Source: an uncultured Bacteroidia bacterium
Lineage (GTDB): Bacteria > Bacteroidota > Bacteroidia > Bacteroidales > Prolixibacteraceae
Direction of reading: 5' to 3'
NCBI GenBank assembly: GCA_903907075.1
Contig: CAIVMQ010000085.1
Coordinates: 1-64,000, forward strand
DNA length: 64,000 bases
The notes under the pieces were generated by a model. It saw only the letters and a list, made by a program, of their open reading frames with translations. It searched no databases and was not told where the DNA came from. Position 1 is the first letter of the stretch; the number at the start of each line of letters is the position of its first letter. Shown here piece by piece: positions 4,326 through 38,466 of this stretch. Made by a program: the position numbers and the translations under genes.

Positions 4326-4436
4326 ACGATTTATGATTAATCTTAAAACTAATTTTCATTCTTTTTGTTAAATATCTGGTGAATTTTAAAAAGGTTGTGT
4401 TTTTATGAATGCTAATTATAATGTAAATATAAAACA

Positions 4437-5765: not shown

Positions 5766-5770
5766 TTAGA

Positions 5771-7837: not shown

Positions 7838-7932
7838 TTGCTTAAATATTAAAAAATAATAAATTCGTATAACTAACGGATGAAACTACTTCATTATGAG
7901 TTTTATTCCTGAATTATTAAAAGAAATATCGG

Positions 7933-8442: not shown

Positions 8443-8523
8443 GGGTAACCCTGATTGCGTGTTTTTATTCTTACATATTTGCTGCTCAATTTTACGTTGA
8501 AGGCATTTTAACGCAATGTTTTT

Positions 8524-9393: not shown

Positions 9394-9436
9394 TATTTTG
9401 ATAATCAAATATGTGATCGCCAAAGTGTTAATTTTT

Positions 9437-9444
9437 TACCTTTG
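9437..9444 (+). promoter_or_regulatory. Promoter -7 box for mgsA
   Basis: TACCTTTG, a full TAnnTTTG match, 16 bases before the mgsA start codon, implying a very short leader. Confidence 0.5.
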
Positions 9445-9460
9445 CCAAAAATAAATTCAA

Positions 9461-9934
9461 ATGAGAGCTAAAATTAAAAAGACAATAGCCATAGTCGCAC
9501 ACGATAACCGCAAAAAAGATATGGCAGAATGGGTGGGTTATAACTGGAAAGAGTTAGCTCAGCATACACTGGTGTGTACCGGAACGACAGGCAAAATGGT
9601 GGAAGATACGATCAGTCTGAAATGCGCCGAATTTGATGAGATGCCACCTCAGGTAATTCGTCTGAAATCAGGTCCATTGGGTGGTGATCAACAGCTAGGA
9701 TCAATGATTTGTGAAGGAAATGTTAACCTACTGATCTTTTTTTGGGATCCGATGCAACCACAGCCACATGATGTCGACGTGAAGGCATTATTACGAATTG
9801 CTGTTCTATATAATATTCCAACGGCTTCAAACCGATCAACTGCAGATTTCATGATTTCTTCGCCATTATTTCACCTTGATTATAAGCCCATTATCAAAGA
9901 TTATACAGCTTATATCACACGAAAAATAGAATAA
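9461..9934 (+). CDS. mgsA: Methylglyoxal synthase
   Basis: Converts dihydroxyacetone phosphate to methylglyoxal and phosphate, a bypass of lower glycolysis. 157 residues, standard size. Family landmarks are IALVAHDNRK-like AIVAHDNRKKD at 10-20, TGTTGKM for phosphate binding at 40-46, the catalytic Asp in SGPLGGDQQLG (D76), and WDPMQPQPHDVDVKALLR. It has its own promoter box and converges on msrB with only 14 bases between the stop codons. Confidence 0.96.
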   Translation: MRAKIKKTIAIVAHDNRKKDMAEWVGYNWKELAQHTLVCTGTTGKMVEDTISLKCAEFDEMPPQVIRLKSGPLGGDQQLGSMICEGNVNLLIFFWDPMQPQPHDVDVKALLRIAVLYNIPTASNRSTADFMISSPLFHLDYKPIIKDYTAYITRKIE

Positions 9935-9948
9935 CCCAAATAGCAAGT

Positions 9949-10452
9949 CTATTTTGCTGTAGGAACAAATTTCAGGGAAACAGAATTAATACAGTAACGA
10001 AGTGAAGTTGGTGGGGGACCGTCATTAAAAACATGACCTAAATGAGCCTCACAATTGGAACAGGTAATCTCAGTCCGTATCATTCCATGACTCTTGTCGG
10101 TGATAACATTTATAGATTTAAGGTCGGCAACATCATTAAAACTTGGCCACCCACATCCGGATTTAAATTTCGACGACGAATTAAATAGTAGGGCACTGCA
10201 GTTCGCGCAAAGATAATCTCCCTTTTCATAAAAATCATAATATTGTCCGGTAAAAGGACGCTCGGTCCCTTTGTTCCTGGTCACTTCATATTCAAATGGA
10301 GTCATTTGTGACTTCCATTGCTCGGCTGTTTTAATAACCTTTGGAGCAACATGCTGCTCTTTTAGACTCTGTGATCTTATATCATCCTGCGCCATAACTA
10401 ATGTATTTAGTTGAACTGAAAAGACAAGAAAAAATAGTATACTGAATTTCAT
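9949..10452 (-). CDS. msrB: Exported peptide methionine (R)-S-oxide reductase MsrB
   Basis: 167 residues. Residues 1-21 are a signal peptide (ILFFLVFSVQLNTLVMAQ), so the enzyme acts outside the cytoplasm, repairing R-methionine sulfoxide in envelope proteins. Zinc ligands are CANC (82/85) and CSNC (131/134). The catalytic cysteine is C154 in LRYCINS, and C100 in SGCGWPSF is the likely resolving cysteine. FTGQYYDFYEKGDY is the family's N-terminal signature. No fused MsrA domain. The gene is preceded on its strand by an unusual repeat-rich leader (10467-10591). Electron donor is not visible; an exported thioredoxin-like partner is expected. Confidence 0.94.
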   Translation of the reverse strand: MKFSILFFLVFSVQLNTLVMAQDDIRSQSLKEQHVAPKVIKTAEQWKSQMTPFEYEVTRNKGTERPFTGQYYDFYEKGDYLCANCSALLFNSSSKFKSGCGWPSFNDVADLKSINVITDKSHGMIRTEITCSNCEAHLGHVFNDGPPPTSLRYCINSVSLKFVPTAK

Positions 10453-10466
10453 ACGACTAATCTTTT

Positions 10467-10591
10467 AAAGCTTATAAACGCTTTAGATCTTAACTTTGTT
10501 TAAATTGTTTATAAGAACGGTTATAAAACACATTATAAGTCTTTCTAAAATGTGTTTTATAAAATCTAATCACCCCCTTCTTTAGATCTTA
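10467..10591 (-). repeat. Nested inverted and direct repeats in the msrB leader
   Basis: A perfect 14-base inverted repeat has arms 10521-10534 (ttataaaacacatt) and 10549-10562 with a 14-base loop. Outside it, cttataaac (10471-10479) pairs with gtttataag (10507-10515), and aaagc/gcttt sit at 10467-10471 and 10480-10484. The 12-mer ctttagatctta occurs at 10481-10492 and again at 10580-10591, flanking the large hairpin. There is no T-run after the hairpin, so it is not a standard terminator. It may be a structured leader RNA, repeated operators or a decayed small repeat element. Confidence 0.6.
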
Positions 10592-10639
10592 TTCTTGTGT
10601 CTTATAATTAATATTATGTTAATTATGTATTACTAAAAA

Positions 10640-10662
10640 AAGAGGGAAGTCGTTTCCCTCTT
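10640..10662 (-). terminator. Rho-independent terminator of the TPR gene
   Basis: Perfect 9-base stem aagagggaa/ttccctctt with a 5-base loop. On the minus strand it is followed by a run of T. It lies just downstream of the TPR gene stop at 10668. Confidence 0.85.
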
Positions 10663-10667
10663 AAAAT

Positions 10668-11834
10668 TTATTTCTTATTGATAGCATCAAACTTATCCAT
10701 CATTTTTAATCTATAATATAAGTTTTTTAACTGGTCAAGAATATAAGTATCATTAGGATTATACTTCACAGCGTTTTCAAGATAAGGAACTGCAGATCTA
10801 AAGAACTCATCAGCTTTTCCTTTTTCTAAATCATAGCGAACTTGGTCTGTGGTAGGAACGGAATTCGCTACATCAAACTGTTTTACACCACGATTAAAGT
10901 AAATAACGCCAATATTATAATAAGCATCTGCATTTTCAGGCTTAATCTCAACAGCTTTTTTATAAACATCAATTGCTTCATCTTGTCGTCCAAGTCGATC
11001 CAGTGCGACTCCTTTCGCCAAATAGAATGAAGAATTATCTTTCTCTTTTGCAATTGCCTTATCCAGGTAATTTATTGCCTCGTTGGGTTGCCCGGTAGTT
11101 ATATAGTAATTAATTAACTGTACATTAATGCTTTGATCGTTAGGATATTTTTCAAAAGCTATTTTCATCGTTTCAACAGCTTTTATTGTATCCTCCTTAG
11201 TCCCTAACTGCTGATACGCGCTAATAATCTGGGCAAAACAAGATCCACCATTATACCCATACTTTGTGCAATCGATAAAGTATGCAATAGCTTTATCATA
11301 GAGTTTTGCATTCATAGCTGCTAACCCCGTATTATAAATAATGGCAGTATCTATAGTGGCATCGGATTTAAATAATGGAGATTTATCGACAAGCAATTTC
11401 TTCTCAAAATAATCTGTTGCCTTAACGTAATCATTTGCTTGATAAGCTATTACAGCAGCATTGATCAATGTATTCGAAAATGATACAAGTTTGAGTTTAA
11501 GAATTTGATTTCCACCCTTTTCATCCAGATCAGCAGCTTTCATATAAGATTTAAAGGCCTCCTCTACAGAATTAGGAACTAATTTCTTGTAGTTTTCGTC
11601 TTTTGAAAGGATTATTGCTTCTATAATCTCACCCCTGGCTTGCCAAGTACCCGACCAGTTAAGTGTTTTTTCAGATTTTGGATTAGAAGGATCAAGCGTC
11701 TCCTGAATAGCTTCCCAAGCTTTATCTAGTTTTCCTGACTCTTTATAAGAGAGAGCTGTTGCTACTTTTCCTTTTTGTGCAAAAACCGCAGTTCCAATTA
11801 GTACAAAAGCAAATGCTAAAATTAATTTTCTCAT
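10668..11834 (-). CDS. Exported tetratricopeptide-repeat protein
   Basis: 388 residues. Residues 1-19 are a clean signal peptide (MRKLILAFAFVLIGTAVFAQ). The body is helical with TPR units, clearest in the C-terminal half: 'SSFYLAKGVALDRLGRQDEA' followed by 'YKKAVEIKPENADAYYNIGV'. An additional ~100-residue N-terminal part has weaker repeats (KATDYFEKKLL, KAIAYFIDCTKYG). Such periplasmic TPR proteins are scaffolds for protein-protein contacts; no enzymatic domain is visible. It follows gyrA on the same strand with 91 bases between, and ends at a strong terminator. Function unassigned. Confidence 0.85.
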   Translation of the reverse strand: MRKLILAFAFVLIGTAVFAQKGKVATALSYKESGKLDKAWEAIQETLDPSNPKSEKTLNWSGTWQARGEIIEAIILSKDENYKKLVPNSVEEAFKSYMKAADLDEKGGNQILKLKLVSFSNTLINAAVIAYQANDYVKATDYFEKKLLVDKSPLFKSDATIDTAIIYNTGLAAMNAKLYDKAIAYFIDCTKYGYNGGSCFAQIISAYQQLGTKEDTIKAVETMKIAFEKYPNDQSINVQLINYYITTGQPNEAINYLDKAIAKEKDNSSFYLAKGVALDRLGRQDEAIDVYKKAVEIKPENADAYYNIGVIYFNRGVKQFDVANSVPTTDQVRYDLEKGKADEFFRSAVPYLENAVKYNPNDTYILDQLKNLYYRLKMMDKFDAINKK

Positions 11835-11925
11835 GATTTAAAAATATTTTTATTACAAATTGAGGTTAAATCGAACCTTATTAAAGTAAGCTTTTAAATA
11901 ATAACTGATTATTTTCCATTGATAA

Positions 11926-14457
11926 TTAATCGATAGCAGTATCAGAAACCTCTTGATCAACAATGTCATCAGTAGATTCAGTGGTCTCCCCTTCCCCTTC
12001 GAGAAGTTCTTCAACTTCCTCTATTTCAACCCGTGCAATGGAAGCTATTGAATCGTCATCTCTTAGGTTAATCAGCTTAACACCCTGTGCAGCACGCCCT
12101 GTCATTCTGATTTTAGAAACGGGAAGCCTAATCGTAATACCAGCCTGAGTGATAATCATTAAATCATCCGAGTCAGTAACATTCTTTATTGCCACTAAGG
12201 ATCCTGTTTTATCAGTGACGTTAATGGTTTTTACTCCTTTGCCTCCCCTGTTGGTAATCCTGTAATCCTCAATTTTAGATCGTTTTCCATAACCATGTTG
12301 CGAAACAACCAATACATCTTCGATGTCGTTTTCAACACAAATCATACCCACCAGTTCATCGTTCTCATTCGCAAGACTAATCCCACGGACACCCGATGCT
12401 GTACGGCCAATCGCTCTGGCATGCTTTTCATGGAAACGGATTGCCTTTCCAGATTTAATAGCAAGTAAAATCTCATTATTTCCGTTAGTCAGACGAGCTT
12501 CAATTAACTGATCATTCTCCCTTATTGTTATTGCATTAACTCCATTTTGACGAGGCCGTGAATAGGCTTCAAGAGGTGTCTTCTTAATAACCCCTTTTTT
12601 GGTGCAGAGAATGATATAGTTATTATTAATATAAGCTTCGTCTTTTAATGAAGTAACATTGATATAAGCCCTTACCTGATCATCGGCTTCGATACCGAGT
12701 AAGTTTTGAATAGCCCTTCCTTTGGATGACTTAGTCCCTTCAGGAATCTCATAAACCTTAAGCCAGAAGCATTTTCCCTTCTCGGTAAAGAGCAATAAGG
12801 TATTATGCATAGTGGCTATAAACATATGCTCAAGGAAATCCTCATCACGGGTGCTCGAACCTTTCGAGCCAGTACCACCGCGTGCCTGGGTCCTGAATTC
12901 TGTAAGTGGCGTCCGCTTAATGTAACCTAAATGGGAAATGGTAATTACCATATCTTCATTAGCATAAAAATCTTCAGGATTAAAATCTTCAGATGCATAT
13001 ACTATTTCAGTCCGCCGCGAATCACCATATTGAGTTTTAATCTCAACAAGCTCATCTTTGATAATGCCCATTCGAATATCTTCATTGGCTAAAATCTCTT
13101 TTAACCATTCGATATGCTTCCTTAACTCTTCGTATTCTGCATGAATTTTATCCCTTTCCAGACCGGTAAGTCTTTGTAATCTTAGGTCTAGAATTGCGCG
13201 GGACTGAATTTCATCAAGATCAAAATTTAGCATCAGTCCATCTCTGGCCTCTTCGGGAGTTTTAGCACTGCGAATAAGGGTAATTACTGCATCCAGATTA
13301 TCAATCGCAATAATAAGGCCTCTTAAAATATGGGCCTTCTTCTCAGCCTGATCCAAATCGTATTGGGTACGACGAATAACCACTTCATGACGATGTTCAA
13401 CAAAGTAATGAATAAGGTCTTTCAGATTAAGCATCTGAGGACGTCCTTTAACAAGAGCAATATTATTGACATTGAAGGCGGTCTGTAACTGAGTAAATTT
13501 GTACAACTTATTCAAGACAACGCTAGCCATCTCATCGCGTTTAATGTCAACAACGATACGCATCCCGGTACGATCCGATTCATCATTAATATTTGAAATC
13601 CCCTCAATTTTTTTCTCATTGACAAGATCTGCAATTTTAATAATCAATTCGGCTTTATTTACCATATAAGGAATCTCGGTAATAACGAGCTTCTCGCGAC
13701 CATGCTCAACAGATTCAATTTCGGCTTTACCTCGCACAACAATTCGTCCACGACCTGTTTCAAATGCCTCCTTAACGCCGGAATAACCATAAATAATACC
13801 TCCTGTAGGAAAATCCGGAGCCTTTACAATATCTATTAACTGACTAATATCAATATCACTATCAGCTATATAGGCAATGATGGCATCTATTGTGTCTGAT
13901 AAATTATGCGGAGGCATATTAGTCGCCATACCAACAGCAATCCCTGAGGTTCCGTTAACTAAGAGATTCGGGAATTTGGTTGGTAATACAATTGGCTCCT
14001 GAAGTGTCTCATCGAAATTAGGGCGAAAATCAACCGTATTCTTATCCAGATCGGCAAGTGCCTCTTCGGCTAGCTTTTTTAAGCGAGCCTCAGTGTATCG
14101 CATCGCAGCTGGACTATCACCATCGACCGAACCAAAATTACCTTGTCCGTCAATCAATGGATAGCGCAGCGACCACTCCTGAGCCATCCTAACCATGGCA
14201 AAATAGACCGATGAATCACCATGAGGATGAAATTTACCAAGCACCTCTCCCACTATTCTAGCCGATTTCTTATAGGGCTTATTGGAGGCGCTTCCCAATT
14301 CACTCATGCCATATAAAACCCTGCGATGCACAGGTTTAAGTCCATCACGGACATCCGGAAGAGCTCTCGATACAATCACCGACATCGAATAATCGATGTA
14401 GGCCGTTTTCATCTGCTCCTCAATGTTTATTTGTATAATTCTTTCTAAATCAGACAT
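11926..14457 (-). CDS. gyrA: DNA gyrase subunit A
   Basis: Breakage-reunion subunit of gyrase, introducing negative supercoils with GyrB. 843 residues. Catalytic Tyr is Y121 in [10 protein letters not shown]. The quinolone region reads [18 protein letters not shown]82 is the sensitive-type serine, and F86 takes the place of E. coli D87, which I regard as a lineage feature. The C-terminal domain is a six-bladed pinwheel with a GyrA-box-like [10 protein letters not shown]. It ends in an acidic tail rich in Glu, Asp and Thr ([16 protein letters not shown]). gyrB is not in the window. A TATTTTTG box lies 37 bases upstream. Confidence 0.98.
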
Positions 14458-27055: not shown

Positions 27056-28036
27056 ATGGAAAACCTGTATGCCGATAACTTTGCAGAAAGAATGAATCAA
27101 TGGGGAAAAGAAGGAAAGCCTTTTATATTTATCATTGATTATGAAATGAATAGTCCAATAGTTATTCCCCTTCAAGAGGCTGCCCAAAATGGTATATTTT
27201 ACAATTTTGAAAACTACAACAATACTGATAGTCAAGTAAATGAAAATAAGGAGTTTGTATTTAAGAAATTCCCTGTTAGTTATCTTCTTTTTAAAAAATC
27301 ATTCGATCAGGTGTTAAATGAAATTAAGTTGGGAAACTCATTTCTCACTAATCTCACTTTTCCCACCCCTATTAAAACTAATCTTACGCTCAAGGAGATA
27401 TTTTACAGAAGCGAAGCCCCCTTTAAATTACTCTTTAAGAATTCATTCGTTGTATTTTCACCTGAACCTTTTGTGAATATTAATAATCAGAAGATTTCAT
27501 CCTATCCCATGAAGGGGACTATCGATGCTTCAATTCAAGATGCGGAAATTAAAATTTTAAATGACATCAAGGAAACTGCAGAACATCATACGATTGTAGA
27601 TATGATACGAAATGATTTATCGCGCGTTGCCACCAATGTAAAAGTTGAGAAATTCAGGTTTCTTAATACCGTTAAAACACACGATAAAACATTGCTTCAG
27701 GTAAGTTCAGAAGTTTCTGGCGAATTACCCAATGATTATTGCAGTCATTTGGGAGATATTCTAACCGAAATATTACCAGCTGGTTCTATTTGTGGTGCTC
27801 CAAAAAGAAAAACATTAGAAATAATCAGCAATTCAGAAATCTACAAGAGAGGATATTACACAGGGGTCTTTGGAATCTTTGACGGTGTAAATCTCCAATC
27901 TGCAGTAATGATAAGGTTTATTGAAAAAACCGATCGCGAATATCTGTTTAAAAGTGGAGGTGGGATTACCTTTTTTAGTGATCCACAAAAAGAGTATCAA
28001 GAACTAATTGATAAAGTTTATGTACCAATTCATTGA
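27056..28036 (+). CDS. pabB: Aminodeoxychorismate synthase component I
   Basis: Converts chorismate with ammonia to 4-amino-4-deoxychorismate for folate. 326 residues, a short PabB lacking the N-terminal subdomain of longer forms. Chorismate-binding landmarks: SYPMKGTIDAS, EHHTIVDMIRNDLSRVA, ILPAGSICGAPKRKTLEII, YYTGVFGIFDG, and the C-terminal FKSGGGITFFSDPQKEYQEL. The PMKGT motif favours aminodeoxychorismate synthase over anthranilate synthase. The partner lyase gene overlaps its end by 29 bases. No glutamine amidotransferase (pabA) is nearby. Confidence 0.92.
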   Translation: MENLYADNFAERMNQWGKEGKPFIFIIDYEMNSPIVIPLQEAAQNGIFYNFENYNNTDSQVNENKEFVFKKFPVSYLLFKKSFDQVLNEIKLGNSFLTNLTFPTPIKTNLTLKEIFYRSEAPFKLLFKNSFVVFSPEPFVNINNQKISSYPMKGTIDASIQDAEIKILNDIKETAEHHTIVDMIRNDLSRVATNVKVEKFRFLNTVKTHDKTLLQVSSEVSGELPNDYCSHLGDILTEILPAGSICGAPKRKTLEIISNSEIYKRGYYTGVFGIFDGVNLQSAVMIRFIEKTDREYLFKSGGGITFFSDPQKEYQELIDKVYVPIH

Positions 28037-28619
28037 AACAATCTGCTATAATAATGGTGTATTTGAGCGAATTGAATTACATAATAACCGTTGCAACCGC
28101 ACTCGAAACCATTTCTTTGGAAAACTTCCGACTATTCATCTCGAATCTGTGCTCTCGATTCCAGGTCCGCTAATTGATAAAAAAGTTAAATGCACCGTTA
28201 ATTATGGAATAGAGTTAAACAATATTGAATACAGCCTCTACCAAATCCGCCAGATTAAATCGCTCCAACTAGTCTATAACGACACCCTCGATTATAGTTT
28301 TAAGTTTGCAGACCGGTCAAAACTTCAACGACTCTACGACTTAAAAGGTAAATGTGATGATATACTATTTGTTAAAGATGGATTTCTAATAGATTCCTTT
28401 TATGCAAATACCATTTATTTACGTGATAAAAGATGGTATTCGCACACAATTCCATTGCTATTTGGTACCAGACTCGAAAGTTATCTTAAAGAGGGACTTA
28501 TCACCTCCTCTCCTATTCGTTTAAGCGAACTTCATTTATTTAAAGAAGTCAGAATTATAAATGCAATGATTTCTATTGAAGATTCTCCAATAATCCCCAT
28601 TGAAGCAATCTTATTCTAA
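28008..28619 (+). CDS. pabC: Aminotransferase class IV, probable 4-amino-4-deoxychorismate lyase
   Basis: 203 residues, PLP-dependent fold IV. Probable catalytic lysine is in YSFKFADRSKL, and the region 'CDDILFVKDGFLIDSFYANT' matches the usual E/D-x-x-x-x-N segment of the family. It splits aminodeoxychorismate into p-aminobenzoate and pyruvate. It is shorter than E. coli PabC (~269) and divergent, so the assignment leans on the 29-base overlap with pabB. A second in-frame ATG at 28020 would shorten it by 4 residues. Confidence 0.82.
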   Translation: MIKFMYQFIETICYNNGVFERIELHNNRCNRTRNHFFGKLPTIHLESVLSIPGPLIDKKVKCTVNYGIELNNIEYSLYQIRQIKSLQLVYNDTLDYSFKFADRSKLQRLYDLKGKCDDILFVKDGFLIDSFYANTIYLRDKRWYSHTIPLLFGTRLESYLKEGLITSSPIRLSELHLFKEVRIINAMISIEDSPIIPIEAILF

Positions 28620-28704: not shown

Positions 28705-28734
28705 TTTGTATTATTGATTTATAACATACCTTTG
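28705..28734 (+). promoter_or_regulatory. Promoter of the cytochrome/DUF5777/YceI operon
   Basis: TTTG at 28705-28708 and TACCTTTG at 28727-28734, separated by 18 bases, are an excellent match to the Bacteroidota -33/-7 promoter. The start codon of the first operon gene is 115 bases downstream, leaving a leader of about 105 bases. Confidence 0.65.
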
Positions 28735-28848
28735 TTAAATTAACAATATTGAACATAGAAATTTATTGTTTCTATATTATTCTAAAATGATAGAAATCAA
28801 GTATATAAAAATTGATTAGCCATTAGTAATTAATCGCAACAGAAATTT

Positions 28849-29844
28849 ATGAATTGGAAGAAATCAACACCGAATGCTCTACTACCTATCTATGGACTTG
28901 TTTTATCATTTTTTTTAATACAATGTCAACATGACGGGCTTATTGTTGCTAATTTAAAGCCTGTTTGTTACGACACCGAAATTGCACCTATATTTTTAAA
29001 CAAATGTTCAAGCTGCCACGATCAAAACAAGTCAAGCGGAGGTATAGGGTTGTATGATTATAACTCGATATTAAAATCTGTAACCCCTTATAATTCAGAG
29101 AAGAGCAAGTCTTATCTTTCGATTACTGGCAAAGGATTTGCACAGTTAATGCCACCTGCAGGTGCACTATCTGAAAATGATCGAATCCTAATTCGTGTAT
29201 GGATTGATCAAGGTGCTAAAAATACCATTTGCTATATTCCACCGGATGATAATATAGACAACGGCGGAGGAATCCCAGTTACCAAGTCTGGAGATGCAGT
29301 TTGTTTTAAGCGTGACATTCTTCCCGTATTGTTATCTTCATGTGGAACAGCAGGTTGTCACGATCAAAATTCGCGAAAAGATGGTTATGTAATTACCAGC
29401 TATGCCTCCGTAATGACCAATATGGTCAAGGCGGGTCAGCCAAATTCAAGCCGGTTATATACCATTGTAGCAAATAATAATATGCCGCCGAGCCCTTATG
29501 CCAAGCTTACCCAAGCTACAAAAGACAGTATTTATAATTGGATTAAAAACGGAGCCCTTGATGGCGTTTGTGCTTCTTCTTGTGATACTGCAACTTTGGT
29601 TACCTATCAAAATCAAATCTCATCATTAATGACCCGAAATTGCACCTCGTGTCACAGTGGTTCAAATGCTCAAAAGGGGATTGCCTTGGATACCTATGCC
29701 GGAGTTAAAACCTATCTTGATAACGGGAAATTATTGTCAGCCGTTAAAGGAACATCGATACAAATGCCTCCAGGATATTCAATAAGTAGTTGTGAAATGC
29801 GACAACTCGAACTTTGGAAAGCAAATGGAGCTAAACAGAATTAG
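28849..29844 (+). CDS. Exported lipoprotein with three c-type cytochrome-like modules
   Basis: 331 residues. A hydrophobic segment ends in FFLIQCQHDG, a lipobox-like cysteine. Three repeated modules of ~90 residues each carry a haem-type motif and a later Met-Pro-Pro: CSSCH with LMPP, CGTAGCH (a CX4CH variant, 29341-29361) with NMPP, and CTSCH with IQMPP. The repeated architecture suggests gene-internal duplication. His and Met would be the axial ligands in modules 1 and 3; whether module 2 binds haem is unclear. It is the first gene of a four- or five-gene operon and is probably an envelope electron carrier or scaffold. Function unknown. Confidence 0.75.
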   Translation: MNWKKSTPNALLPIYGLVLSFFLIQCQHDGLIVANLKPVCYDTEIAPIFLNKCSSCHDQNKSSGGIGLYDYNSILKSVTPYNSEKSKSYLSITGKGFAQLMPPAGALSENDRILIRVWIDQGAKNTICYIPPDDNIDNGGGIPVTKSGDAVCFKRDILPVLLSSCGTAGCHDQNSRKDGYVITSYASVMTNMVKAGQPNSSRLYTIVANNNMPPSPYAKLTQATKDSIYNWIKNGALDGVCASSCDTATLVTYQNQISSLMTRNCTSCHSGSNAQKGIALDTYAGVKTYLDNGKLLSAVKGTSIQMPPGYSISSCEMRQLELWKANGAKQN

Positions 29845-29853
29845 TCTTAACGT

Positions 29854-30240
29854 ATGAAAAAAATATTTCTACCACTCCTTATCCTGACTCTAACCTATTT
29901 ATTTTCAGGATGCTATTACGATAGCAATGAAGCTCTTTTTGGCCAACCTGGTATTGTTGCATGCGATACGACTGTTACCAATTTTACAGCTCAGATCAAA
30001 CCAATATTGCAGTCTAACTGCTATTCCTGCCATTCGAATGCACACGCAGCAGGAAGCGGCGCAGGAATAAAACTAGAGGATTATGCTGATGTTAAAACCT
30101 ATGCCACGAATGGGCGATTATTCGGTACAATAGTTCGACCTGCCATTTATTCTCCAATGCCAAAGGGTGGGGGAAAGTTAAGTGATTGCGAAATAAAAAT
30201 TATTAAAATTTGGATAACTAAAGGAGCCATAAACAATTAA
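29854..30240 (+). CDS. Small c-type cytochrome lipoprotein
   Basis: 128 residues. Signal peptide with lipobox LTYLFSGC at residues ~14-21. One haem motif CYSCH in 'IKPILQSNCYSCHSNAHAA', and a later SPMPKGGGK supplies a Met-Pro that could be the distal ligand. The domain resembles each module of the preceding gene and shares its LEDYADVKTYATNGRLFGT block, so the two likely arose by duplication. Starts 9 bases after the previous stop. Confidence 0.8.
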   Translation: MKKIFLPLLILTLTYLFSGCYYDSNEALFGQPGIVACDTTVTNFTAQIKPILQSNCYSCHSNAHAAGSGAGIKLEDYADVKTYATNGRLFGTIVRPAIYSPMPKGGGKLSDCEIKIIKIWITKGAINN

Positions 30241-30244
30241 AATT

Positions 30245-31156
30245 ATGACAGTTAAATTATTTGTTTTCATATCTATATTTCTGATTTGTGCTTTTATTTC
30301 ACCTTCAGCACGGAGCCAGGATTTGGATTCGCTGATGGAAAAAGCGGTAAAACCACAAACTGTTTATGCCACAGCTACATTTAAATCTACTCGTGTTGTG
30401 AATGGACATTCAGTAGAACGAATGAAGAAGAATCAGCTCGAATTTAGGGTTTCTCATCGATTTGGTCAAATGAATTCCGGATCTTACGAATTTTGGGGAC
30501 TTGATCAGGGGACTATTCATCTCGCTCTCGAATACGGCCTTACCGATTGGCTCGAAGTTGGAATTGGTCGTAGCACCTTCGAAAAAACGGTTGATGGATT
30601 TGGAAAGGTTTCACTTCTTAGACAAAGTAGCGGAGCGAATACTATGCCCATTCATCTCTCCTATTTGGCTAGCACAGAGGTGATATCCCTTAATACAGAT
30701 CCGGCAATGAAGCAAAACTTTTCTTCACGCATGACATTTGTTCAACAAATACTAATTGCACGCAAGTTTAATGAGAGCTTCTCATTCCAATTAACTCCAA
30801 CATTTATTCACCGCAATATTGTCCCTACAGAGATTGAACACAATGACCTCTTTTCTCTGGGCTTGGGTGGCCGCTATAAATTATCGAAGCGAATAGCCCT
30901 CAATGTTGAGTATTTCTATGTCTATCGCGGAAATGAAAATGCTATATTTCAGCCAAATACTGGTGCAATTCACTATTACAATCCACTCTCTGTTGGTATC
31001 GATATTGAGACAGGTGGTCACGTCTTTCAAATAATGATTACTAACTCTCAAGCGATGCGTGAGGGAGGCTTTATCGGCAAAACAACTGGAACCTGGGGTG
31101 ATGGCGGTATTCGTCTAGGCTTTAATATTTCAAGGGTCTTCTCATTTAACAAATAA
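30245..31156 (+). CDS. DUF5777 family beta-barrel protein
   Basis: 303 residues with a signal peptide ending ARSQ at about residue 24. The mature part alternates hydrophobic and polar residues in amphipathic strands ('EFRVSHRFGQMNSGSYEFWG', 'GLTDWLEVGIGRSTFEKTV') and ends with 'WGDGGIRLGFNISRVFSF', whose terminal Phe pattern is typical of outer-membrane barrels. I match it to the DUF5777 family by this pattern. It starts 4 bases after the cytochrome gene. Could be a porin or anchor for the haem lipoproteins; this is inferred from the operon. Confidence 0.8.
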   Translation: MTVKLFVFISIFLICAFISPSARSQDLDSLMEKAVKPQTVYATATFKSTRVVNGHSVERMKKNQLEFRVSHRFGQMNSGSYEFWGLDQGTIHLALEYGLTDWLEVGIGRSTFEKTVDGFGKVSLLRQSSGANTMPIHLSYLASTEVISLNTDPAMKQNFSSRMTFVQQILIARKFNESFSFQLTPTFIHRNIVPTEIEHNDLFSLGLGGRYKLSKRIALNVEYFYVYRGNENAIFQPNTGAIHYYNPLSVGIDIETGGHVFQIMITNSQAMREGGFIGKTTGTWGDGGIRLGFNISRVFSFNK

Positions 31157-31167
31157 AAATACAGATC

Positions 31168-31716
31168 ATGATCAAATCTATTCTTTTAATCTGCTTCGTT
31201 GCACTCGGCTTAACTAGCGTTGCTCAGTCTCTTTATATTACCAAAGATGCTAAAATCAATTTCAACTCCTCTACAACCGTGGAAGATATTGTCGCTGAAT
31301 CAAATCAGGCTACCACAATCATCGATATTGACAAGAATGTGATTAAATTTTCGGTCTTAACGACCTCCTTCAAGTTTCGCAGAGCGCTAATGGAAGAGCA
31401 TTTTAATGAGAACTATATTGAATCACCGAAATTCCCCAAGGCTAGTTTTACTGGTAAAATAGGTTCTCCCATCGATTGGAAAAATGAAAAGACGGTCAGT
31501 GTTGATGTTACTGGTTCCCTTACCATGCATGGAGTCAATAAAGAGATAACATTTAAGGCGAATATTACCCCTGGAAAGAGTAAGATTAGTGCAAGCTCCG
31601 AAATAGTAGTAACTCCGGAATCATTTAATATTCAAATACCTTCCGCAGTAAGGGATAAAATTGCTAAAGAAGTTACCATAAAGATTGAAGCAGTTTACGC
31701 CCCTTACCAGCAATAA
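31168..31716 (+). CDS. YceI-family periplasmic protein
   Basis: 182 residues, signal peptide to about residue 19 (LLICFVALGLTSVAQ). The rest is a lipocalin-like barrel with FSVLTTSFKFRRALMEEHFNENYIES and 'FPKASFTGKIGSPIDW', then VDVTGSLTMHGVNKEITFKA, the core YceI signature. Members bind polyprenoid or other amphiphiles. Fourth gene of the operon, 11 bases after the DUF5777 gene. Confidence 0.9.
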   Translation: MIKSILLICFVALGLTSVAQSLYITKDAKINFNSSTTVEDIVAESNQATTIIDIDKNVIKFSVLTTSFKFRRALMEEHFNENYIESPKFPKASFTGKIGSPIDWKNEKTVSVDVTGSLTMHGVNKEITFKANITPGKSKISASSEIVVTPESFNIQIPSAVRDKIAKEVTIKIEAVYAPYQQ

Positions 31717-31804
31717 TTTAAATATCGTTAAACCTGTGTTTATCCCGCTTGAGATAAATCCCGAATTAACGGTTATTTTTTAAAATATATCAATAAAATA
31801 GCGT

Positions 31805-32242
31805 ATGATGAAAAAGAAAAGTGTAGTTCGATTAGTTATTTGGTTGCTCTTGATTGGCATTGTTACCGCTTTTTCAGCGATCTATTATGTCTTTAACATG
31901 CCACGTAGAAACCTCTCCAAAGAAGTTGCAGTATACTCCTTGGCTGCAAAACAATTAATCAATGACTATCAAATTGATGAGACCTTTGCAAATAAAAAAT
32001 ACCTTGATAAGGCCATTACAGTTAGGGGAATAATTAGAAGCGTCAGAACGCTGGAAAATCACACCATGATTTTTAGCATTGAAGATGCCATGGAAGGGGT
32101 AAGCTGCACGTTAGATAGCGCAGACGTGGTCAAATACCAAACTAAACTCGATTTAATAAAAATAGGCACTGAAGGTACTTTCAAAGGAAGGTGTGCAGGT
32201 AAATTAATGGATATCCAAATAATTAATTGTATTCCTCAATAA
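31805..32242 (+). CDS. Membrane-anchored OB-fold (tRNA_anti-like) protein
   Basis: 145 residues. One N-terminal membrane helix (LVIWLLLIGIVTAFSAIYYVF), then a ~110-residue domain with the OB-fold strand pattern (KAITVRGIIRSVRTLENHTMIFSIED ... VSCTLDSADV ... GTEGTFKGRCAG). Resembles the tRNA_anti-like family, which is common in Bacteroidota and not shown to bind tRNA. Two ATG codons start the frame. Probably the last gene of the cytochrome operon, 88 bases after yceI and before a strong terminator. Confidence 0.8.
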   Translation: MMKKKSVVRLVIWLLLIGIVTAFSAIYYVFNMPRRNLSKEVAVYSLAAKQLINDYQIDETFANKKYLDKAITVRGIIRSVRTLENHTMIFSIEDAMEGVSCTLDSADVVKYQTKLDLIKIGTEGTFKGRCAGKLMDIQIINCIPQ

Positions 32243-32261
32243 CATAAAAGACAAATTATTG

Positions 32262-32299
32262 AAAAACAGCCTGTCCATACAATTGAACAGGCTGTTTTT
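32262..32299. terminator. Bidirectional terminator after the OB-fold gene
   Basis: 13-base perfect stem aaaaacagcctgt/acaggctgttttt with a 12-base loop. Flanked by A and T runs; serves the operon on the plus strand and the 32308-33060 gene on the minus strand. Confidence 0.9.
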
Positions 32300-32307
32300 T
32301 TTATATA

Positions 32308-33060
32308 TTAAAATGCAAAGCCTATACTAACTCCACCTCTAAACCACGGATATGGGGCATTTGTTGCCCTGATAATAATCCCGTTATCAATCTGATATAC
32401 AGAAAGTTTATGACTTATTACGGAAGGTAATTCAGAAATATTCTGATCAATAACTTGTTTAATAACAGTCAAGATAAGTGGATCATAAGGGTCAGCCATC
32501 GCTGATTTAGTGGTAATATTTCCGCGTAAAAATCCCCCTTCAAGCCCAAGCAAATAAAGATCCAAGTTCACTTTTTTTGCAATAAGAAATTGAAACCCTA
32601 ATTGGCATCCTAAGTTTATTGAATTTAACTTTATTGCAGAGGCTCCCGCATACTCAATACGCTGATCATATACCCCTGCAATTCGTGCATCCCCTCTAAT
32701 CTGATGATAATTCAAATATGGCTCAAGATAAAATCCCTTGGGGAGCCCTTGCTTTCCAGTATAATGTCGAAAGGCACCTCTGAGCGTGCTTGTACCAAAT
32801 TCGGCTCTCTTAAGGTCTGAATCGGCAGTTAAGCCATATTTACCCATAACCGATTTGGTAATAGGAAGCCCGATCTGAAATGTGATTGAATTTCGGGAAT
32901 TAATCATTCGTTCATACTCAAGAGAGACCGTGTGAAAATAGAGATTAACGGGCAAGAATTTCAATACGTTACGCTTCGAGAGTGAATTAGAATCGTGAAT
33001 TTGACCGAATATCAATGAAGTTAAACCTGAAAAAAAAATTAAAAGAAATAGCTTATTCAT
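32308..33060 (-). CDS. Predicted outer-membrane beta-barrel protein
   Basis: 250 residues with a signal peptide (KLFLLIFFSGLTSLIFGQ). The mature part has alternating strands such as 'VSLEYERMINSRNSITFQIG', 'RHYTGKQGLPKGFYLEPYLN' and GCQLGFQFLI, and ends with PYPWFRGGVSIGFAF, a terminal aromatic pattern for barrel insertion. Probably an 8-stranded DUF3575-like barrel; the family assignment is uncertain. Divergent from the RND pump operon. Function unknown. Confidence 0.7.
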   Translation of the reverse strand: MNKLFLLIFFSGLTSLIFGQIHDSNSLSKRNVLKFLPVNLYFHTVSLEYERMINSRNSITFQIGLPITKSVMGKYGLTADSDLKRAEFGTSTLRGAFRHYTGKQGLPKGFYLEPYLNYHQIRGDARIAGVYDQRIEYAGASAIKLNSINLGCQLGFQFLIAKKVNLDLYLLGLEGGFLRGNITTKSAMADPYDPLILTVIKQVIDQNISELPSVISHKLSVYQIDNGIIIRATNAPYPWFRGGVSIGFAF

Positions 33061-33253: not shown

Positions 33254-34486
33254 ATGAAAAAAGCCTTCTGGAGCACACTACTATTAAGCTCTTTACTATC
33301 AGCGAATATATTTGCTCAATCTCTTGATGATTTTATATCCTTAGGGGTCAAAAATAGCCCGTTGCTTTACGATCTAAATAATCAAAGAATCGCTTCAAAA
33401 TTTGACAGCCTGCTTATACTCGCAACTTTTAAGCCTCAGATAAGGCAACTTACTCAGTTTGCCCACTACCCTACTGGTTCAGGATGGGGTTACGATGAAG
33501 CCATCACCAATGGCGGAAATTATTCTGCTGTAGTTAATTATAATCAGCCCATAGGTAATAAAAAACTGATCAGTAGTCAACTCTACTCCTTAGACCTAAT
33601 TAACCAAACGTTAAAGGTAAACGAAATAATAACCACCATTGAGCTTACCAAAGGTATTACGGCACAATACCTAACTGCCTATAGTGACTTTGCTCAAAAC
33701 ATGTTCTATAAATCGGTTATTGAGACACTCAATAACGAACAAAAAACATTAAAAATACTTGTAGAGAAAGGGGTTTATGCGCTTACTGATTTGATGAATT
33801 TGCAAGTAATGATAACCTCTCAAAAAATCATTCTATCTCAATCATCGATTCAGCTAAGTAATGATATCGCATTACTAATCTTTATTTGCGGTATTACAGA
33901 CATTTCAAACATTAATCTCATAAAACCCGACCTAAAAGTTGACCAAGAGTATGATCCTGAAAAATCTCCGCTATTTGCTCAGTTTAAAATCGACAGTTTA
34001 CAAAATATTAATCACAAGCAATTAATTGACAATAACTATCGTCCTCGAATAAATCTTTTCGCTGATGCCGGATTTAATGCAATAACAGTAGAGAATATTC
34101 CCCATAATATGGGTACAAGTCTTGGGATAAATCTTTCAATTCCAATATATGATGGGAAACAACGAAAACTAGAGTATAGTAAAATTAATATAAGCGAGAA
34201 CACACGCTCTTTTTATAAGAAATTTCAATCTTCGCAATACAAGCTTCAATTTAACCAACTACAAAATCAACTAAAACAAACTGATAATCTGATTATTGAG
34301 ATTAAAAATCAAATAGATGAACTCGAAAAGCTAATAGGTATTTATCAGATTGAATTAGATAAAGGATTAGTCCGATTCTTAGATTTTATTACTGTTTTTA
34401 ACAACTATATTGCTACAAAAAATAGTGCAATGGTTGCTGAAATGGGCCGAATGCAAATTATAAACCAAATGAACCACCTTAAATGA
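33254..34486 (+). CDS. TolC-family outer membrane efflux protein
   Basis: 410 residues with signal peptide (LLLSSLLSANIFAQ). Two coiled-coil-rich halves with TolC-type sequence (LDDFISLGVKNSPLLYD at the start; LFADAGFNAITVENIPHNMG and GINLSIPIYDGKQRKLEYSK in the second half). It forms the outer-membrane exit duct of a tripartite pump. Overlaps the adaptor gene by 4 bases (ATGA), so the pump is translationally coupled. Substrate not deducible. Confidence 0.88.
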   Translation: MKKAFWSTLLLSSLLSANIFAQSLDDFISLGVKNSPLLYDLNNQRIASKFDSLLILATFKPQIRQLTQFAHYPTGSGWGYDEAITNGGNYSAVVNYNQPIGNKKLISSQLYSLDLINQTLKVNEIITTIELTKGITAQYLTAYSDFAQNMFYKSVIETLNNEQKTLKILVEKGVYALTDLMNLQVMITSQKIILSQSSIQLSNDIALLIFICGITDISNINLIKPDLKVDQEYDPEKSPLFAQFKIDSLQNINHKQLIDNNYRPRINLFADAGFNAITVENIPHNMGTSLGINLSIPIYDGKQRKLEYSKINISENTRSFYKKFQSSQYKLQFNQLQNQLKQTDNLIIEIKNQIDELEKLIGIYQIELDKGLVRFLDFITVFNNYIATKNSAMVAEMGRMQIINQMNHLK

Positions 34487-35400
34487 GCTCCATAAAATCT
34501 GTTTTCTCTCTACTTACGGTAATTGTGTTAGTAAATTGCACTACTAATTCAAAAACCCAACAAGAGATTCTTAAAGTGTCGACTCCAGTTAGTGTCGTAT
34601 CTATTCAAAATTCCTCCATCAGTGAATTAATACATTTTAATGCCATATCAGCATATCTGCAGAAAAACAGTGTAAAGTCAACAATCACTGGGTATATAAA
34701 AAGGTCATTGGTGAACCAGGGGGATATTGTTAAGGTAGGCCAACCACTTTATACGCTCAACACTAAAGAGGGGGACGCATTAACTCAATTCGCAGCAAAA
34801 GATACATCACTTGCTTTTAAAGGAAAACTAAATATTGTATCACCAACCTTTGGTGTTGTTATAGAATCAAACAAACAAACTAATGATTATGTAAATGACG
34901 GGGAGGTGATGTGTACTGTTGCAGTTCAAAACAGTTTTGTTTTTCTACTTAATGTACCATTTGAACAAAATAAATATGCCATAATCGGAAAAAAATGTAC
35001 AATTATCTTGCCTGATTCGACTACACTTCTAGGAACAATAACGGGTAAACTTTCAACTGTAGATCCTGCATCTCAGACACAAAGCTTTATTATTAAGCCA
35101 ATTACTAATAAAATATACCCAGAGAATCTATCCGTACAGGTTCAAATCATTAAACGTTCAAAGATAACTACCCAGGTTACGGATAAAAATTGTGTACTGT
35201 CGGATGAAACAATGGAGAATTTTTGGGTGATGAAGCTTGTTAACGATTCTATTGCAATTAAAATGAAAATACTCCCAGGTATAACTTCAGGAGACAAAAT
35301 AGAGATACTCGCTCCTACTTTCTCTTCGGAAGAGCGTATTATTAGTAAGGGTAATTATGGATTAGCTGACACAGCGGTTGTACATATTACTAATCCCTAA
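34483..35400 (+). CDS. Periplasmic adaptor (HlyD/MFP family) lipoprotein
   Basis: 305 residues. Lipobox LLTVIVLVNC at about residue 19. The chain has a barrel-sandwich (lipoyl-like) part (KSTITGYIKRSLVNQGDIVKVGQPLYTLN ... SPTFGVVIESNKQTNDYVNDG) and a beta-barrel domain. The alpha-hairpin between the two lipoyl halves is very short, roughly 35 residues, unlike AcrA. It connects the RND transporter to the TolC duct. Located between its two partners with 3 bases before the RND gene. Confidence 0.85.
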   Translation: MSSIKSVFSLLTVIVLVNCTTNSKTQQEILKVSTPVSVVSIQNSSISELIHFNAISAYLQKNSVKSTITGYIKRSLVNQGDIVKVGQPLYTLNTKEGDALTQFAAKDTSLAFKGKLNIVSPTFGVVIESNKQTNDYVNDGEVMCTVAVQNSFVFLLNVPFEQNKYAIIGKKCTIILPDSTTLLGTITGKLSTVDPASQTQSFIIKPITNKIYPENLSVQVQIIKRSKITTQVTDKNCVLSDETMENFWVMKLVNDSIAIKMKILPGITSGDKIEILAPTFSSEERIISKGNYGLADTAVVHITNP

Positions 35401-35403
35401 AAG

Positions 35404-38400
35404 ATGAGAGATTTCTTCGTTTCCCATAAAAATCCCGTAGTTGCATTGCTTGTTATTATACTAGCATCAGGCATTTATAGCTATTCTAAGATGCAATCAT
35501 CGCTGTTTCCGGAGGTTACTTTTCCTAAGATTAAAATTATAGCAGAGAGTGGCTTACAGCCTATATCAAAGATGATGGTTTCGGTAACAAAGCCGCTGGA
35601 AAAGGCGATTAAAAGGGTGCCTAACTTAAAAACCGTGCGCAGTATTACCAGCCGCGGAAATTGCGAAATATCGGCCTTTATGGAGTGGAATGCCGATATC
35701 GATTTATGCAAACAGCAAATTGAATCATCGATAAATCAAATCAAGAATGAGTTACCCCCTGGGACCAACCTATCGGTAGAGAAGATGAATCCGTCAATCC
35801 TCCCGGTTATTGGCTATGTCATTGAGGGAGATAGACGAAGCAATATTGAATTGAATCAAATTGCAAACTATACCATAAAGCCTTTCCTTTCTCAAGCCAC
35901 AGGTGTAGCTGAAGTCTTGGTTATTGGCGGGAAAGTAAAGGAATATCAGATTGAGTTGCGAACTGATAAAATGGCGGCATTAGGAATCACACCAGCTAAA
36001 ATTACTGAGGCTTTAAATCAGACCAATTTCATAAGCAGTAATGGTTATTTAACTGATTTCAATAGGCTCTATCTTACTGTTACAGATAATAATATCACAA
36101 ATTTGGCAGATCTCGAAAATTTAGTGGTTAGTAACGATGGGAAGCGGATCTTAAAACTTTGCGATATCGGAACTATCAGAATTGCCGAACAGGCGCAATA
36201 TGTAAGGATCAATGCGAATGGACAGAGTGCAATACTAATGGCGGTAGTGAAACAACCAAATGGAAATCTAATTGAAGTTACCCAAGGTGTTATCCAAAGA
36301 GTGGCTGAATTAAACAACCATATCTTGCCTAAGAATGTAAGGCTTAAGCCTTACTATATCCAGGGAGATTTTGTCAACGATTCTATAAAAAGTGTTACAG
36401 ATAGCTTGTGGATTGGACTGCTGCTGGCCATTCTTGTATCCTTTATTTTTCTCCGGTCACTAAAGTCTAGTGTGGTGATTTTAATTACAATACCGATCAC
36501 CTTATCGTTAACGTTAACGGTGCTTAATTTAGTTGGTTATAATTTTAATATTATGACGTTAGGAGCTATTGCTGCAAGTATAGGTTTAATAATTGATGAT
36601 GCTATTGTAGTCATCGAGCAAATACACCGGACACATGAGGAATTTCCTGAAAAATCAACAAAAGAGCTAATCAGTGGATCTGTACGATTTCTCCTGCCTG
36701 CAATGGTTGGATCATCGATAAGCACGATTGTGATCTTTCTCCCCTTTATAATTCTAAGTGGAGTCGCAGGTGCCTATTTTAAGATTCTGACCAATACCAT
36801 GATGATCACTCTAGTTTGTTCCTTCTTTGTAACTTGGATTGGATTACCTATTGTCTATCTAATGTTCTCTGGGAGAACCAATAATGTGAAGCATAAAACT
36901 CCGCATCTTTACAAACGGGATGGCAAATGGATCACTTTCTTTATTTCCAGACCATATATTAGCATCTCCTTTCTAATTCTCTTAAGTTGTTCGGTATTCT
37001 ATATTTCATCACGTTTACAAACCGGCTTTCTCCCCGAAATGGATGAAGGCAGTATCGTTCTCGATTACACTTCCCCTCCCGGAACCTCACTACAGGAAAC
37101 CGATCGAATCATGTGTGAGGTTGAGAAAATTTTCCCTTCAGTATCCGAAATAGAGAGTTACTCGAGAAGAACTGGAGCACAGATGGGATTTTTTATTACC
37201 GAACCTAACTACGGTGACTATCTGATTCAACTTAAAAAAAATAGAAACCGATCGACTCAGGAGGTAATTGATGAGATAAGAAAAAAAGTTCAAGCCTCAC
37301 AACCTGGACTTAACATAGATTTTGGACAGGTAATTGGTGATATGCTTGGAGATTTAATGAAATCAACACAGCCTATCGAGATTAAAATTTTTGGTGATAA
37401 TAGTTTAGTCCTCCAAGGTATTGCTAAGGAAGTTGCCAAGATTACCACTGAGGTGAAGGGTGTAGAGGATGTCTTTAATGGAATAACAATTGCCGGTCCG
37501 TCAATTAACCTTGAGCCCAATCATCAAAAACTTGCGCTACTCGGTATTACTCCAGCAGATTTTCAGCATCAGCTTCAGACTCAGATTCAAGGGGTCATTG
37601 TTGGAACTATTTATGAACGGGAGCAACTTACCGCTATTCGTATGATTTATCCCGGTGCTACCCTAAAATCATTAGAAGAATTAAAAAATGGATCGATATT
37701 CCTCCCCAATGGAAAGCTCTATCCAATCTTACAATTAGCTACTATTAAGATTGATGGAGGTGTCTCGGAAATTGAAAGGGAAAATTTACAGACGATGATA
37801 CCCGTAACTGCACGGCTAAATAATCGTGATATCGGTAGTGTTATGAAAGATCTACAACTCGCTATACAGGCTAAAATTCAATTGCCATTAGGGTATCATA
37901 TTTCTTTTGGAGGTATTTATGAAGAACAACAGAAATCGTTCAATGAATTAATGATGATTCTTCTGACAGCTATTTTACTGGTTTTTGCTACAATGCTCTT
38001 CTTATTTAAAGAATTTAAAATTGCTTTACTTATCGTTTTAATTGCAGTATTTGGAATATCAGGAAGTTTAATCGCTCTTTATCTTACCGATACCCCTTTA
38101 AATATAGGAAGTTACACCGGTATTATTATGATTGTAGGGATTATTGGTGAGAATGCAATCTTTACCTTTCTTCAGTTTGAACAAACACTAAAATCAAATC
38201 ACACCGACGGTGCAATAGTCTATGCCATATCCACCCGTTTACGCCCTAAATTAATGACTGCCTTAGGTGCAATTATTGCTCTATCTCCAATCGCGTTGGG
38301 AATTGGCACCGGGGCTCAATTACATCAGCCTTTGGCAATCGCTGTAATTGGCGGATTTATTTTAGCGATTCCTTTACTGCTGATTGTCTACCCTTCCCTA

Positions 38401-38466
38401 CTTCGAATTTTGTTTAAAAATTATGAACATTCATATTTAAATACACTGGCAATTGAGGAATTGTAA
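35404..38466 (+). CDS. RND-family efflux transporter
   Basis: 1020 residues, inner-membrane proton-driven pump. Starts in the membrane (NPVVALLVIILASGIYSY), with periplasmic porter domains, and about 12 transmembrane helices. The proton-relay acidic pair is in TM4 (IGLIIDDAIVVIEQ). The second half repeats the pattern (MIVGIIGENAIFTFLQF) and carries Glu instead of Asp. It is close to CzcA/HAE-1 types. Export of metals or of hydrophobic compounds are both possible. Last gene of the operon before a shared terminator. Confidence 0.92.
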   Translation: MRDFFVSHKNPVVALLVIILASGIYSYSKMQSSLFPEVTFPKIKIIAESGLQPISKMMVSVTKPLEKAIKRVPNLKTVRSITSRGNCEISAFMEWNADIDLCKQQIESSINQIKNELPPGTNLSVEKMNPSILPVIGYVIEGDRRSNIELNQIANYTIKPFLSQATGVAEVLVIGGKVKEYQIELRTDKMAALGITPAKITEALNQTNFISSNGYLTDFNRLYLTVTDNNITNLADLENLVVSNDGKRILKLCDIGTIRIAEQAQYVRINANGQSAILMAVVKQPNGNLIEVTQGVIQRVAELNNHILPKNVRLKPYYIQGDFVNDSIKSVTDSLWIGLLLAILVSFIFLRSLKSSVVILITIPITLSLTLTVLNLVGYNFNIMTLGAIAASIGLIIDDAIVVIEQIHRTHEEFPEKSTKELISGSVRFLLPAMVGSSISTIVIFLPFIILSGVAGAYFKILTNTMMITLVCSFFVTWIGLPIVYLMFSGRTNNVKHKTPHLYKRDGKWITFFISRPYISISFLILLSCSVFYISSRLQTGFLPEMDEGSIVLDYTSPPGTSLQETDRIMCEVEKIFPSVSEIESYSRRTGAQMGFFITEPNYGDYLIQLKKNRNRSTQEVIDEIRKKVQASQPGLNIDFGQVIGDMLGDLMKSTQPIEIKIFGDNSLVLQGIAKEVAKITTEVKGVEDVFNGITIAGPSINLEPNHQKLALLGITPADFQHQLQTQIQGVIVGTIYEREQLTAIRMIYPGATLKSLEELKNGSIFLPNGKLYPILQLATIKIDGGVSEIERENLQTMIPVTARLNNRDIGSVMKDLQLAIQAKIQLPLGYHISFGGIYEEQQKSFNELMMILLTAILLVFATMLFLFKEFKIALLIVLIAVFGISGSLIALYLTDTPLNIGSYTGIIMIVGIIGENAIFTFLQFEQTLKSNHTDGAIVYAISTRLRPKLMTALGAIIALSPIALGIGTGAQLHQPLAIAVIGGFILAIPLLLIVYPSLLRILFKNYEHSYLNTLAIEEL

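Follow-up and report, generated by a model that had tools for sequence, protein, structure and literature searches.

The window analysed here, a 64,000-nucleotide stretch of contig CAIVMQ010000085.1 from an uncultured Prolixibacteraceae bacterium, carries on its + strand a run of five genes (28849–32242) centred on a DUF5777 protein. We propose, with confidence that stops somewhat short of even, that this operon encodes a minimal outer-membrane porin–redox module, resembling a split Cyc2 system without being related to it. The original prediction for this DNA had described two haem lipoproteins, a DUF5777 barrel, a YceI carrier and an OB-fold membrane protein. All five open reading frames (ORFs) were present at their positions and their families were borne out, and the view that all the products are exported or membrane-bound fits their sequences.

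28849–29844, + strand: three-module PSCyt1-like cytochrome c, predicted to be exported, lipobox doubtful
29854–30240, + strand: one-haem cytochrome c lipoprotein
30245–31156, + strand: DUF5777 (PF19089) outer-membrane beta-barrel, 12 strands in the structure model
31168–31716, + strand: YceI-family lipocalin (PF04264), predicted to be exported
31805–32242, + strand: OB-fold protein (PF12869), N-terminally anchored

In the proposed mechanism, the 12-strand DUF5777 barrel would hold a small one-electron protein at its mouth, here the one-haem lipoprotein. A small redox substrate would enter the polar lumen and swap single electrons with that haem, as proposed for Cyc2, and the three-haem protein would relay electrons to or from other carriers. 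A YceI lipocalin of the window's type would ferry an isoprenoid or quinone across the periplasm, with the anchored OB protein as an accessory. Such a module may provide a simple route for single electrons across or at the outer membrane.

Cytochrome–DUF5777 fusions and Rieske proteins in the cytochrome position

The best indication of the small cytochrome acting as one unit with the barrel is a set of seven fusion ORFs of 407–440 amino acids (aa), found in seven genomes of the order to which genome G030 belongs (loci L050, L182, L183, L184, L185, L186 and L188). In each, an N-terminal CX4CH module with an MP motif is joined to a C-terminal DUF5777 domain; Pfam confirmed the DUF5777 part of the L050 fusion (1.4e-44), and the cytochrome module was assigned from our own profiles, the CX4CH motif and MP. 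No YceI ORF occurred in the stretches (3.9 to 12 kb) fetched around the seven fusions. Two other candidates were rejected: the G414 gene (open frame 497) is only 295 aa long, and that of G342 (open frame 378) has no fused cytochrome.

In loci of Dyadobacter, Runella, Emticicia and Telluribacter, a Rieske-motif protein lies just upstream of DUF5777–YceI, with no cytochrome module seen beside it. This Rieske-type cluster comprises 18 loci, at position −1 (16) or −2 (2) relative to DUF5777; the one member checked with Pfam matched PF00355 (1.9e-11), and the order Rieske–DUF5777–YceI was found in 12 loci. Since two unrelated one-electron proteins occupy the same slot, electron exchange is indicated. 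The commonest constant of the set is DUF5777 together with a small one-electron protein. We know of no precedent for a Rieske-based outer-membrane redox porin.

Conservation of the gene set across Bacteroidota

The window is part of a genome (G000) of 3.59 Mb in 133 contigs, 92% complete, whose nearest relative by DUF5777 is a Prolixibacteraceae metagenome-assembled genome (L092, 82% identical). DUF5777 was present in 115 of 296 genomes sampled across Bacteroidota, in 40 of 114 genomes of G030's order and in 81 of 198 of the window's own order (79 over the cut-off). None of 14 control genomes carried it, the search outside Bacteroidota consisting of these controls and the 80 best loci.

Gene neighbourhoods were compared for the window and loci L032–L171, which together hold 141 DUF5777 ORFs, two of them fragments of one L106 gene. 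Loci L092–L171 are the 80 best, fetched by the pattern [FVI]DIETGGH, and the invariance of that stretch in A4 is therefore by construction. Genes were taken as mechanical ORFs, and a run as genes on the same strand with gaps of up to 300 bases (400 in the survey of extracytoplasmic function (ECF) sigma, pump and Rieske-slot neighbours); run counts are lower bounds at contig ends. The sampled genomes are related, several carry more than one locus, and Fisher values ignore this kinship.

OB, YceI and a cytochrome-family gene shared the run in 55 of the 141 cases, YceI and a cytochrome-family gene in 33, and Rieske and YceI genes in 14. In total, 118 of the 141 runs included YceI, and 125 included a gene of the cytochrome family or for a Rieske protein. 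YceI directly adjoined DUF5777 in 109 of the 138 ORFs of at least 255 aa, and nine of these, the window included, had the exact gene order of the window. Conservation of the neighbourhood had been set beforehand as a refuting test, and the gene set is conserved far beyond chance adjacency. In the L106 metagenome contig, both DUF5777 and a multi-module cytochrome gene are broken into two ORFs apiece, possibly through sequencing error.

A DUF5777 clade with multihaem partners

The same genome carries a second DUF5777 gene (C99:20761–21558). It belongs to clade B (n = 18, support 0.771) of a DUF5777 tree of 158 proteins, a clade chosen as the richest in multihaem runs; among the seven fusions, that of L050 alone is in the tree. 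The run around this gene encodes a six-CxxCH MtrC-like protein, a one-haem lipoprotein, DUF5777, a cytochrome c, a seven-CxxCH protein, cytochrome b561, a cytochrome c and a NapC-like multihaem protein, with a Crp-type regulator adjoining. The locus (L072, G000:C99:12000–31000; cluster at 4228–12510) has the appearance of a respiratory- or extracellular-electron-type multihaem cluster. Nineteen more low-scoring DUF5777 loci of the window's order, a part of all such matches, were fetched by bit score with their neighbours unseen (a twentieth region was taken because it looked like a fusion). Clade B took in 17 of these 19, L196 and L203 falling outside it.

Clade B runs contained a one-haem module in 18 of 18 cases and a protein with at least four CxxCH motifs in 16 of 18, with YceI in none. 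Among the other 140 tree members, the runs held YceI in 118, a cytochrome module in 109, OB in 65 and Rieske in 17, and none encoded four or more CxxCH in one protein. Pfam identified MtrC-like and c7/c3-type multihaem partners in the clade B loci checked, as well as cytochrome b561 with NapC-like or NapC/NirT proteins (L072 and L205; NapC-like also in L198) and Fer4 with NrfD (L206). Downstream of a clade B DUF5777 gene, L213:9866–12664 encodes a protein of 933 aa, which contains 19 CxxCH motifs and, at 595–738, a stretch resembling cytochrome b561. Outside clade B, another type has an EB_dh lipoprotein in seven loci; Fer4- and NrfD-type genes follow in L054 and L063, both with EB_dh, and in L052, which has none (assigned by Pfam in L054 and by similarity in L063 and L052).

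Because YceI is absent from clade B and from the surroundings of the fusions, the barrel–redox pair appears to be the core of the system, which favours the porin–redox reading. The original prediction of an envelope system linking haem proteins to a lipophilic molecule keeps its haem and envelope parts, but its stress on the lipophilic molecule covers one branch only. More broadly, DUF5777 might constitute a redox-porin family of its own in the outer membrane of Bacteroidota, with no kinship to Cyc2 or Mtr. This family would combine a 12-strand barrel with an exchangeable one-electron protein (either a Rieske [2Fe-2S] protein or a CX2CH/CX4CH cytochrome, which may be fused or separate); some of its lineages would be fed from the quinol pool through multihaem chains and others by quinone-carrying YceI. 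We hold this generalization with low confidence, as a possibility rather than a probability.

The YceI lipocalin and a lipid-defence alternative

The operon YceI matches PF04264 (3e-16; 60.6 bits against a gathering cut-off of 23.7) and is divergent, its best solved relative reaching E 3.6e-4. Two further YceI genes of the genome (C14:48250–48753 and C119:18449–18955) outscore it against PF04264, and L187:5376–6836 carries a YceI domain (157–318) within a 487-aa protein directly upstream of a DUF5777 gene. In Riemerella under iron limitation, a YceI gene that may or may not be connected with this operon is reported as up by 1.16 log2.

The main alternative to the porin–redox module is an envelope lipid-peroxide/quinone defence like that of BcnA/LcoA, in which YceI-bound quinone would quench outer-membrane lipid radicals, the cytochrome or Rieske protein would recharge it and DUF5777 would be the exchange site. 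In the passages retrieved from PMC9113575, BcnA/LcoA of Burkholderia combine a YceI lipocalin with cytochrome b561, also in fused forms, mutants show increased lipid peroxidation, and most solved YceI structures have Ubi-8 or octaprenyl ligands. As there, the YceI lipocalin of our set has a genetic link to a haem protein, and both systems offer evidence from fusions; the frequency of YceI in DUF5777 runs, the link to oxidase-bearing genomes and the nearby ECF sigma genes (both below) point the same way. However, the window operon has a c-type partner (Rieske in relatives) and an outer-membrane barrel in place of cytochrome b561, its YceI is divergent, and YceI is not a constant partner of DUF5777, being absent from the clade B runs and from the stretches fetched around the fusions. 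Overall we judge the defence explanation somewhat unlikely; for the window's type alone, it stays a strong rival.

Haem motifs, the OB protein and a maturation alternative

The first protein contains three PSCyt1-like stretches (PF07635, 2.9e-14) with the haem motifs CX2CH, CX4CH (CGTAGCH) and CX2CH. The three modules claimed for it therefore stood, but its middle motif is CX4CH, and its status as a lipoprotein is doubtful, as the residue just before the lipobox cysteine is a non-canonical Q (FLIQC). It matches NF047812 (LIC11213 family lipoprotein) in three stretches (3.8e-21), a likeness that at 75.4 bits remains below the family cut-off of 100, and its profile had no match up to E 0.01 among PDB sequences. 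The second protein matches PF13442 (1.4e-4, below that family's cut-off) and has a clean lipobox (FSGC, then CYYD), a CX2CH motif and a downstream MP, as expected of the predicted one-module haem lipoprotein.

A CX2CH or CX4CH motif was kept in 179 of 182 cytochrome-family proteins of the compared loci; two of the exceptions read CX3CH, and one is without that part. The 128 one-motif cytochromes divide into 90 with CX2CH and 38 with CX4CH, and 124 have a downstream MP, which we take to supply the likely Met haem ligand. A haem motif with a downstream Met, as in c-type cytochromes, was found, the motifs being present in both window proteins. A maturation gene of ResB type is present in the genome. 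Haem attachment to the operon cytochromes is plausible on these sequence features.

The OB protein matches PF12869 (1.2e-19; 70.8 bits against a gathering cut-off of 23.5), and its model consists of an N-terminal helix and an OB fold (predicted local distance difference test, pLDDT, 94.4). C101 and C130 are conserved in at least 90% of 48 aligned sequences, and the nearest fold match is the Klebsiella lipoprotein 3f1z (Z 13.1). This architecture, with four CcmE entries at Z 8.6–9.5, is what a cytochrome maturation or haem-delivery aid would draw on, the OB protein acting like CcmE. The CcmE scores are, however, tied with those of many unrelated OB folds, and PF03100 matched neither the OB protein (E up to 1) nor the 92%-complete genome (E up to 0.001). 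The protein also lacks a C-terminal HxxxY, presumably the CcmE motif, the genome has the ResB-type gene, and OB occurs in only 65 of the 140 runs outside clade B. We found no support for a CcmE-like OB protein and regard a maturation role as very unlikely.

The DUF5777 barrel compared with known porin–cytochrome systems

The DUF5777 gene product matches PF19089 over the whole profile (1–247 of 247; 6.9e-96, 320.7 bits against a gathering cut-off of 23.1). Its model has 12 strands (pLDDT 91.3; predicted template-modelling score, pTM, 0.82). Since strand positions alternate between polar and hydrophobic and many of the polar ones are conserved, the lumen is unlikely to form an open, neutral pore. 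The DUF5777 profile had no match up to E 1 among PDB sequences.

Like Cyc2, the seven fused relatives place one N-terminal c-type haem module on an outer-membrane barrel at a similar total length, with one haem per barrel. The passages retrieved from PMC8406198 give Cyc2 16 predicted strands and an AXPXFAR[Q/K][T/Y] motif before the haem motif. The differences are that cytochrome and barrel are separate genes in the window, that its DUF5777 model has 12 strands, that the fusions use CX4CH, and that YceI and OB accompany the barrel in the window. The AXPXFAR[Q/K][T/Y] motif was absent from all seven fusions, and Cyc2 was not named among the 50 fold matches listed in either of two DUF5777 fold searches. 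MtrCAB and MtoAB likewise combine a barrel with cytochromes, and in clade B multihaem proteins and quinol-type modules of the inner membrane are present as well. By contrast, Mtr has a 26-strand barrel around a decahaem protein (PMC8406198, same passages), whereas the window operon pairs a barrel of 12 strands with a one-haem module, and none of its proteins has more than three haem motifs.

Association with oxygen, stress and metal genes

In the window's order, COX1 matches below 1e-100 were found in 54 of 77 DUF5777 carriers vs 7 of 121 other genomes, kinship being ignored; with any match up to 1e-50 the counts were 62 of 77 vs 19 of 121. Genomes with only marginal DUF5777 matches (G428, G431, G454 and G462) were counted as lacking it, and the comparison's classes A and B were split by bit score, not by tree. 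No COX1 match up to 1e-50 was found in 10 of 58 genomes with a high-scoring (window-type) DUF5777. The association is as compatible with oxidative defence as with a role in respiring cells. In the phylum sample, none of the 11 COX1-negative genomes was on the DUF5777 list when compared by eye, a weak sign given that COX1 is near universal there (285 of 296).

ECF sigma genes lay upstream of the DUF5777 run in 13 loci and anti-sigma-like genes in 12 (loci with one or the other include L118, L120, L122, L126, L140, L053 and L163), and pump genes lay nearby in five. In the Dyadobacter loci L151, L154 and L166, Rieske–DUF5777–YceI stands between two-component system genes and resistance–nodulation–division (RND) pump genes. 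These neighbours would suit metal redox homeostasis, in which copper or iron is oxidized or reduced at the outer membrane in the handling of metal stress. Yet a pump accompanies only 5 of the 141 sources, its heavy-metal type is our assumption from the sequence, with Pfam giving ACR_tran and OEP, and in the window the pump genes lie beyond a terminator and a convergent gene. We consider a metal role quite improbable.

Weighing the porin–redox reading

Several observations count against a porin–redox module. That the proteins form a complex and that electrons move at or across the outer membrane are points that we infer, as are the direction of transfer, the substrate and what YceI carries. The L050 cytochrome module went unrecognized by Pfam at E up to 0.01. 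The best solved fold matches of the DUF5777 model are generic barrels (FapF, Z 17.8; KdgM, 17.7; NanC, 17.1), and 12 strands, as modelled, are probably too narrow for a whole haem domain. No redox gene was found in 16 of the 141 runs: 11 had YceI (six also OB), one had OB only and four had no partner, some of the 16 lying at contig ends or having partners on the other strand. Gene order varies among relatives, and L203 mixes the types, its single run combining YceI and OB with DUF5777, a one-haem module and a further CxxCH gene. A search for a surface-export signal after the lipobox gave mixed figures: 70% of 61 cytochrome lipoproteins had an acidic residue at +4, compared with 34% of 29 controls, but the shares with at least two acids at +2 to +7 were 49% and 38%. 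The nearby ECF sigma and pump genes would suit a stress role too, and the carriers Dyadobacter, Runella and Hymenobacter are aerobic heterotrophs not known, as far as we are aware, for extracellular respiration.

The ordinary barrels among the fold matches, with FadL-family channels at Z about 11.5–13, raise a further alternative: DUF5777 could simply be a channel that passes a small or lipophilic molecule, the haem proteins being carriers that are merely co-regulated. The seven fusions, the Rieske replacement and the multihaem runs of clade B nevertheless tie the barrel itself to redox proteins, and we therefore find the plain channel improbable.

The original remark that this combination has no named function agrees with the open-licence literature searched: no paper on DUF5777 was found in it, searches there by combinations of parts gave no paper on this operon among the matches listed, and none gave a description of the Rieske variant, the fusions or the YceI lineage. 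The passages retrieved from a survey of iron-oxidation proteins (PMC10654088) mention neither Bacteroidetes nor YceI. Those from PMC6344600 report putative new porin-cytochrome types and Cyc2 homologues in bog-lake Bacteroidetes, with the families unnamed there, and clade B or the fusions may for this reason have been glimpsed before.

Should the porin–redox module transfer electrons at the outer membrane, a compact redox porin would be present in many bacteria that are not regarded as electroactive. With the fusions and the Rieske variant, a vague operon becomes a testable question: whether the barrel binds the small redox protein, and what the partner outside is.

Operon borders and neighbouring genes

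Two candidate signals flank the five genes.

28705–28734, + strand: candidate Bacteroidetes-type promoter TTTG-N18-TACCTTTG, exact pattern match
32258–32306, + strand: intrinsic terminator, a hairpin followed by a run of U

The genes had been described as having almost no spacing between strong signals. The first three gaps (9, 4 and 11 bases) agree with this, but the last, between YceI and OB, measures 88 bases, vs 8 in the nearest relative L092. The strong promoter is likewise upheld in part: the sequence fits TTTG-N18-TACCTTTG, which we take to be the Bacteroidetes-type consensus, exactly, but such matches are not above chance in the window (2 vs 4.77 expected from shuffles). A sigma-70 scan of the window was also at chance (24 found vs 23.9 expected). 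The terminator deserves its description as strong, with a hairpin of −21.1 kcal/mol (z −7.25) that none of 200 shuffles equalled; it is missing from a simple scan whose loop limit is 8.

Upstream (27056–28619) lie pabB and a class IV aminotransferase-like gene, overlapping by 17 or 29 bases depending on the start, and relatives of both are likewise upstream in L092 and L106. Beyond the terminator, a convergent gene (32308–33060) is followed by RND pump genes of OEP, HlyD and AcrB type (33254–38466 of the window).

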